Source: Alphaproteobacteria bacterium
GTDB taxonomy: Bacteria > Pseudomonadota > Alphaproteobacteria > UBA828
Assembly (NCBI GenBank): GCA_016869195.1
Contig: VGET01000006.1
Coordinates: 1 to 39,339, forward strand
Length of the DNA: 39,339 bases
Direction of reading: 5' to 3'
In this document: in pieces, positions 16,923 to 23,279 of the stretch
Layout: each line of letters opens with the position of its first letter
Position numbering within the stretch: position 1 is the first letter of the stretch
Position numbers and translations under genes: made by a program
Notes under the pieces: generated by a model
Told to the model about the DNA's origin: nothing
The model's input: only the letters and a program-made list of their open reading frames with translations
Database searches by the model: none

Positions 16923-17387
16923 GTGGAGACCGTACTTCTCGTCATTCTCGTCATCATCGCGCTCGCGCTGATCGCGGTCGTTCTGGTCCAGCGCAGCGAA
17001 GGCGGCGCGCTCGGCATGGGCGGCGGCCCCGGCGGGCTGTTCTCGGCCCGTGGCTCGGCCAATCTGTTGACCCGGATCACCGCCGGCCTCGCGGCCGCGT
17101 TCATGATTCTCAGCCTGGTGCTGGTCATCATCGAAGGCAGCGGCAGCCGGAATCGGTCGGTGATGGATGCGCCGCTGGCGACCGACGTCGCCACACCGCC
17201 GACGGCCGATGATGCCGCGATCGATACGGATCCGGCGGACACGGGCGAGCGGGTGCCGGTTGGGGCGACCGAGGGCGGGGCGGGTGAGACCTTCACGCCG
17301 GGCGAGGCGAGCGCGCCGAAGCCCGCTGGCGAGTCGGGCGCGCCCAAGCCGGAGAATCAAGAATCGACGATCCCGCAATCCGAGTAG
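16923..17387 (+). CDS. secG: Preprotein translocase subunit SecG
   Basis: METVLLVILVIIALALIAVVLVQRSEGGALGMGGGPGGLFSARGSANLLTRITAGLAAAFM; acidic/Pro-rich C-terminal tail. Confidence 0.95.
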   Translation: METVLLVILVIIALALIAVVLVQRSEGGALGMGGGPGGLFSARGSANLLTRITAGLAAAFMILSLVLVIIEGSGSRNRSVMDAPLATDVATPPTADDAAIDTDPADTGERVPVGATEGGAGETFTPGEASAPKPAGESGAPKPENQESTIPQSE

Positions 17388-17479
17388 CCGGCGGGCGACT
17401 CGCGGGTCCGCCAGGGGCCGATCGAAATGCCACGCGCCGTCCTTTGGGGGCGCGCGCCCGTCTGCTATATTAGGCGTCC

Positions 17480-20724: not shown

Positions 20725-22882
<2,158 letters not shown>

Positions 22883-22883
22883 T

Positions 22884-22943
22884 GCGACTCGGCACCGCTA
22901 CTGGTGCGACTCGGCATTGACAGACGCGACTCGGGTGTGATTC
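22884..22943. promoter_or_regulatory. Cluster of four GANTC (CcrM-type methylation) sites within a TGCGACTCGGCA direct repeat
   Basis: GACTC at 22886, 22908 and 22928; GATTC at 22939; GCGACTCGG repeated at 22884, 22906 and 22926 just upstream of ftsB. Confidence 0.6.
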
Positions 22944-22952
22944 GCTCGACCC

Positions 22953-23279
22953 ATGCTCGCACTCGCCCGTGAGTTTCGCTTCCGCGCTCGGCATCTCGTC
23001 TTTCCGATGCTCGGCGTGCTGCTGATGCTCTATTTCGGATACCACGCGGTCCAGGGTGATCGCGGCCTCCTCGCCTTGATGAAACGCTCGAACGATGTCG
23101 AGGAGGCTCGCTCCCGAGTCGCCGCACTTCGGGCCGAGCATGAGGCGATCGAGCACAAGGTGGCACGGCTCAAGCCGGAAAGCCTCGACCTCGACCTGCT
23201 CGATGAGCGCGCGCGCGCAATCCTCAATCTTTCCGCCCCTGACGAGGTCGTGTTGATCGAGCGCCCTGACGCGCGCTGA
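22953..23279 (+). CDS. ftsB: Septum formation initiator FtsB/DivIC family
   Basis: Short protein with N-terminal TM (HLVFPMLGVLLMLYFGYHAVQGDRGLLAL) then coiled coil (EARSRVAALRAEHEAIEHKVARL); located between eno and pdhA. Confidence 0.9.
   Translation: MLALAREFRFRARHLVFPMLGVLLMLYFGYHAVQGDRGLLALMKRSNDVEEARSRVAALRAEHEAIEHKVARLKPESLDLDLLDERARAILNLSAPDEVVLIERPDAR

Follow-up and report, generated by a model that had tools for sequence, protein, structure and literature searches.

A predicted CcrM-marked, leaderless promoter of the division gene ftsB and the occurrence of its layout across the Alphaproteobacteria

Results

GANTC sites between eno and ftsB

We examined a 39,339 bp stretch of an alphaproteobacterial assembly (GCA_016869195.1, contig VGET01000006.1, positions 1–39,339), here referred to as the window. 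Its positions 22886–22952, directly upstream of the cell division gene ftsB, probably form a sigma-70-type, leaderless ftsB promoter marked by the methyltransferase CcrM, at which methylation would tie transcription to replication. The intergenic region between the eno stop codon and the ftsB ATG spans 22883–22952, with the ATG at 22953. The upstream neighbor eno (enolase) is at 21584–22882 on the forward strand, while the downstream gene, at 22953–23279 on the same strand, encodes a DivIC/FtsB protein of 108 aa (PF04977 DivIC, E = 5e-13), which confirms its earlier naming as ftsB.

Four GANTC sites were identified in this region, at 22886–22890, 22908–22912 and 22928–22932 (all GACTC) and at 22939–22943 (GATTC), with spacings of 22, 20 and 11 bp, exactly as an earlier note on this DNA had described. 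Site 1 is distal, within the repeat unit TGCGACTCGGCA; site 2 is in the second repeat unit, directly 5′ of the −35 box; site 3 is inside the −35/−10 spacer, 11 bp ahead of site 4; and site 4, in the context TGATTCG, overlaps the extended −10, with its predicted m6A bases at −13 (top strand) and opposite −11 (bottom strand). The direct repeat carrying GANTC sites, which the note had also pointed out, is real, and the 22/20/11 spacing, including that of the distal site, recurs unchanged in two further species of the genus. The note had further read these spacings as helical phasing; the spacings stand, but evidence for a class-wide phasing rule among the upstream sites is weak (R = 0.24, p ~0.03).

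GANTC is depleted in the window as a whole, with 106 sites counted vs 204.5 expected from dinucleotide shuffles. At the window density, about 0.18 sites would be expected in the intergenic region, in line with the low number first assumed, and at least four have a Poisson probability of 3.6e-5 per such interval, or about 0.02 such intervals expected per window. It is the sole place in the window with four GANTC inside 70 bp. Genome-wide clustering, which the earlier note had proposed as a check, gave a divided answer: the three-GACTC array was found by pattern search only once in the 3.48 Mb assembly, but looser GANTC triples numbered 71 (vs 16 for a reversed control motif), so that loose clustering is not unique. 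The further dense GANTC clusters of the genome were mostly within coding frames.

Some GANTC groups elsewhere in this genome are recorded here in their own right. Within the window, four GANTC in 71 bp (17331–17401) are just 5′ of the CTP synthase gene (frame start 17480); GANTC upstream of CTP synthase is well conserved among Caulobacter relatives (PMC3708114). On contig C43 (L270:2567–2640), five GANTC in 74 bp, after pcm, are directly 5′ of a gene encoding a LysM/Peptidase_M23 lipoprotein (NlpD/DipM-like, a division-related class), and this cluster and the ftsB promoter have GACTCGGGTGTGA in common. Contigs C26, C35 and C113 carry an identical GANTC-rich GACTCGCGGGGGATTCCCAGGCGATCGGCGTTGTGATTC near their ends, probably a repeated element.

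Anatomy of the ftsB promoter

The inferred −35 box, TTGACA, is at 22917–22922 on the forward strand. The inferred extended −10 (22938–22946, same strand) consists of TGA (22938–22940) and the hexamer TTCGCT (22941–22946), and the spacer between TTGACA and the hexamer is 18 bp with TGA at its end. When 51 families were aligned on the core, TTGAC, or more loosely TTG(A/C), stood 21–22 bp before the proximal GATTC, a T preceded GATTC in 49 families, and a T was found three bases past it (−7) in 48. Conservation of −15T, −14G and −7T agrees with TGn and −10 contacts, and the sigma-70 extended −10 features are all there: TTGAC, a 17–18 bp spacer, TGn, −12T and −7T. Class-wide, the hexamer follows the pattern TTCnnT. 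Its −11 base is T, where A is normal, and a standard consensus promoter scan of the ftsB upstream region gave no promoter call; the promoter reads as a weak one that needs help. The combination TTGAC-N15..17-TGATTC occurs once in the genome.

Transcription of ftsB is predicted to start on the A of the ATG (22953), giving a leaderless mRNA. The earlier note had mentioned neither the −35 box nor the overlap with an extended −10 nor a leaderless start. The spacing to the ATG fits this prediction, as does the absence of a Shine-Dalgarno sequence from all 91 loci having the promoter layout (0/91); one was found in 10 of 49 loci without the layout. Between eno and ftsB, no terminator or RNA structure was detected (fold z = 0.25; no terminator-like match).

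Among relatives in the GTDB family of the window, the intergenic sequence diverges outside the core, which keeps the order TTGAC(A), spacer GANTC, TGATTC, 9–10 nt and ATG. As the core persists in relatives without eno upstream, the promoter belongs to ftsB and does not require eno, and the suggestion that ftsB is controlled apart from eno is supported. In the MAG L037, FtsB is 68% identical to that of the window and the ftsB upstream region matches that of the same-genus G012; its title, 'Rhizobium sp. Q54', is probably wrong.

Conservation across the class

Of 288 genomes from across the class, many of them draft, 263 yielded an FtsB, and 140 upstream regions were read, with start codons set by rule. 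For family counts, one genome was taken for each of 62 GTDB families. The promoter layout was present in 41 of the 62 families, against 0.125 in shuffles. A GANTC at −22 to −12 was found in 46/62 families and a spacer GANTC in 30/62, while fifteen other palindromic pentamers gave 0–8 and 0–9, respectively. Conservation of the sites in relatives, on which the earlier note had staked its reading, is thus class-wide.

The spacer GANTC is mostly 11–12 bp from the proximal site and its middle base is variable, as is that of the upstream sites. Such variation is what CcrM recognition, unlike a sigma contact, allows. At the proximal site the middle base is T in 40 of 41, and a near-invariant GATTC is expected there if the site also serves sigma. 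Along the upstream region, GANTC frequency peaks between −11 and −30, drops to baseline across the −35 box, is elevated again at −41 to −130 and reaches background farther upstream.

Two variants of GANTC placement were also seen. In several genera, a further GANTC, as CGATTCG/GATTCG, recurs within the ftsB coding sequence, some 10 bases past its start (e.g. L040, L041, L048, +11). Six loci labelled Rhodospirillaceae (L042, L044, L045, L046, L049 and L063) have the two-GANTC core and a longer leader in which a purine-rich stretch precedes a GTG start; in most of them, inverted GANTC pairs resembling GATTCAATGAATC come after the core.

Retention of the layout in relation to CcrM and GcrA

Both ccrM and gcrA, whose presence in the full genome the earlier note had left to be checked, were found by protein and domain matches. 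The assembly encodes one CcrM (E = 1.4e-158 to the Caulobacter enzyme structure 6PBD, 350 residues) with methyltransferase and RAMA domains, and its frame shares a locus with a ribonuclease HII-like (rnhB) frame. Both halves of the encoded GcrA match Caulobacter GcrA structures (7YE1, 5YIX and 5YIU), with the DNA-binding and the sigma-binding domains both encoded.

Across the class, protein search detected CcrM in 211 genomes at E up to 1e-30, with 204 orthologues at E below 1e-90. A Pfam profile detected GcrA in 183 of 288 genomes. A second profile, built from the GcrA of the window's family, gave 181, and we rejected a profile artefact as the source of GcrA absence. In any draft genome, absence of either protein may be an assembly gap.

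The layout was retained at 84 of 111 CcrM-positive loci vs 8 of 29 CcrM-negative ones (p = 4e-6, with loci that are not phylogenetically independent), and in 46/60 vs 5/19 families, respectively; the remaining 27 of the 111 CcrM-positive loci were without it. Split by genotype, it was found at 54/78 loci with both proteins, 30/33 with CcrM and no detected GcrA, 3/8 with GcrA and no detected CcrM, and 5/21 with neither. On a promoter skeleton defined blind to GANTC, the site was present at 74 of 76 CcrM-positive vs 7 of 11 CcrM-negative loci (p = 0.002, loci of a family not being independent), and a family-level test of the CcrM association among skeleton-bearing families gave p = 0.03. Four of the seven CcrM-negative genomes having the site are sole representatives and some are incomplete assemblies with CcrM-positive family mates, for which reason some of these absences are probably assembly gaps.

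Several families consistently negative for GcrA still keep the promoter GANTC. In family f31, all three sampled genomes are CcrM-negative and GcrA-positive, and the sigma skeleton was kept while GANTC was lost through three different changes, TGCTTCACT, TGATCCAGT and TGGTTCAGT. Two of the three alter solely the n of TGn, occupied by the A of GANTC, a base that, to our knowledge, sigma does not read. In genus g6, which belongs to the same family as the window, TTGACA persists but the GANTC site is gone; a single g6 genome was examined for CcrM and was found to have GcrA but no CcrM. The intragenic ftsB GANTC described above also occurs in g6.

Promoter retention thus appears, from this comparison of genomes, to follow CcrM and not GcrA. 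The earlier note had suggested control of ftsB by CcrM methylation together with GcrA. Of the outcomes that it had listed as refuting this, absence of ccrM and lack of conservation were both contradicted by the data. CcrM control is supported by the co-occurrence; the GcrA part fares less well, considering the 30/33 CcrM-positive, GcrA-negative loci that keep the site and the CcrM-negative, GcrA-positive lineages that lost it. Since the site is kept at those 30 loci, GcrA would not be the only reason for its conservation, although GcrA as the reader in this organism is plausible.

Discussion

Proposed mechanism

We propose that ftsB is served by an extended −10 promoter of the sigma-70 type with a CcrM site in the spacer, another in the −10 and more upstream, and that its mRNA would begin at the ATG. 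Built on the observed layout, its conservation, its co-occurrence with CcrM and the presence of CcrM and GcrA, the proposal predicts methylation, a start site, and a direction and timing of the effect. CcrM would methylate the GANTC sites, and full or hemimethylation at −13/−11 and in the spacer may alter how RNA polymerase opens the weak −10, so that ftsB transcription would be coupled to replication-fork passage. Promoter melting begins where the two GANTC adenines sit (−13 and opposite −11), which makes a direct effect of methylation plausible. In this organism, sigma-70-bound GcrA would probably assist at the methylated TGATTCG, and in lineages without GcrA methylation would have to act directly or via another reader. 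A bolder form, which we put forward tentatively and rate at somewhat below an even chance, is that control of ftsB is an ancient, class-wide CcrM function independent of GcrA, in which m6A at −13 and opposite −11 would directly change opening, or be read by an unknown protein, with GcrA as an add-on in some lineages.

Alternative explanations

GcrA-sigma70 activation operates at Caulobacter targets including mipZ and podJ, and the ftsB promoter could be a classical GcrA-dependent one, with such activation as the whole reason for the retained sites. In favor of this reading, the genome encodes GcrA. Site 4 reads TGATTCG, which has been reported as the activating motif (PMC7987155), and sites 1–3, being CGAGTCG on the minus strand, match YGAKTCK. 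In Caulobacter, a cell-cycle class is distinguished by a GANTC located between −35 and −10 (PMC4287350). This reading does not account for retention at 30/33 CcrM-positive loci without detectable GcrA, for the consistently GcrA-negative families among the site keepers, or for the loss in the GcrA-positive, CcrM-negative f31, and we consider it rather unlikely. Alternatively, TGATTC may be an ordinary conserved −10 in which the GANTC match is incidental, as the fixed spacing to the −35 and the ATG and the T at 40/41 proximal middle bases would allow. That would leave unexplained the spacer GANTC (30/62, with varying middle base and register), the GANTC enrichment up to −130 and the selective loss in f31 at a position unread by sigma, and we regard it as improbable.

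We likewise give a small chance to the array binding a repressor or another factor (e.g. CtrA or a MucR-like protein), with methylation irrelevant or merely blocking. The direct repeat TGCGACTCGGCA and the weak helical phasing are in its favor, and ftsB is under direct CtrA control in Hyphomonas (PMC7200025); against it, the repeat units change between genera while GANTC stays, TTAA-N7-TTAA is absent from the intergenic region and the loci have no single longer motif in common. Chance clustering in a GC-rich genome might be argued from the 71 loose triples elsewhere; it is hardly credible given the local Poisson value of 3.6e-5, and is refuted by class-wide recurrence at the same place.

Relation to known CcrM-regulated promoters

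The CcrM-marked promoter proposed here resembles the CcrM/GcrA promoters of Caulobacter crescentus (ftsZ, mipZ, podJ and ctrA P1) in three respects: a division gene carries GANTC within or close to its core promoter, the genome encodes CcrM and GcrA, and the proximal site fits the TGATTCG activating motif. Unlike those, its target is ftsB, GANTC is within the extended −10, the predicted start is leaderless, and the layout is class-wide and kept with CcrM where GcrA is not detected. TGATTCG / YGAKTCK is the extended motif given for GcrA-activated promoters (PMC7987155).

Promoters methylated by MamA in Mycobacterium tuberculosis (PMC3701705) also have a fixed methylation site overlapping the −10, for which direct action was proposed; that likeness suggests a direct m6A effect on promoter opening. 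Enzyme and motif are different, however; MamA acts on the final −10 base and further downstream, whereas the m6A predicted here are at −13 and opposite −11, and the MamA effect is known from a few genes of one species. At the Agrobacterium tumefaciens gcrA and repABC-Ch2 GANTC promoters (PMC11514494), CcrM effects were seen in engineered E. coli (detectable there for gcrA) or with little role of GcrA; these are other genes, and the effect on gcrA is repression.

A published survey of the class, sampling a single species from each order, concluded that GcrA/CcrM control of division genes is not universal outside Caulobacterales (PMC7987155), and ftsB is missing from the printed table of essential CcrM-affected Caulobacter genes (PMC3973325). 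In Sphingopyxis under anoxia, ftsB goes down together with ccrM, ctrA, ftsN and ftsW (PMC6472365), which is compatible with CcrM control of ftsB but indirect. Our literature search, covering few subscription papers, found no paper linking ftsB to GANTC. CcrM-regulated promoters are themselves known; the ftsB layout would be a new form among them.

CcrM is widely retained in Alphaproteobacteria, and published comparisons describe its targets as rewired (PMC7987155). A promoter of the present kind, methylation-marked and fixed on a single division gene throughout the class, is a concrete candidate for a shared ancestral role of CcrM, and the CcrM-positive lineages without detected GcrA may serve as natural test systems for whether methylation works in the absence of the known reader.
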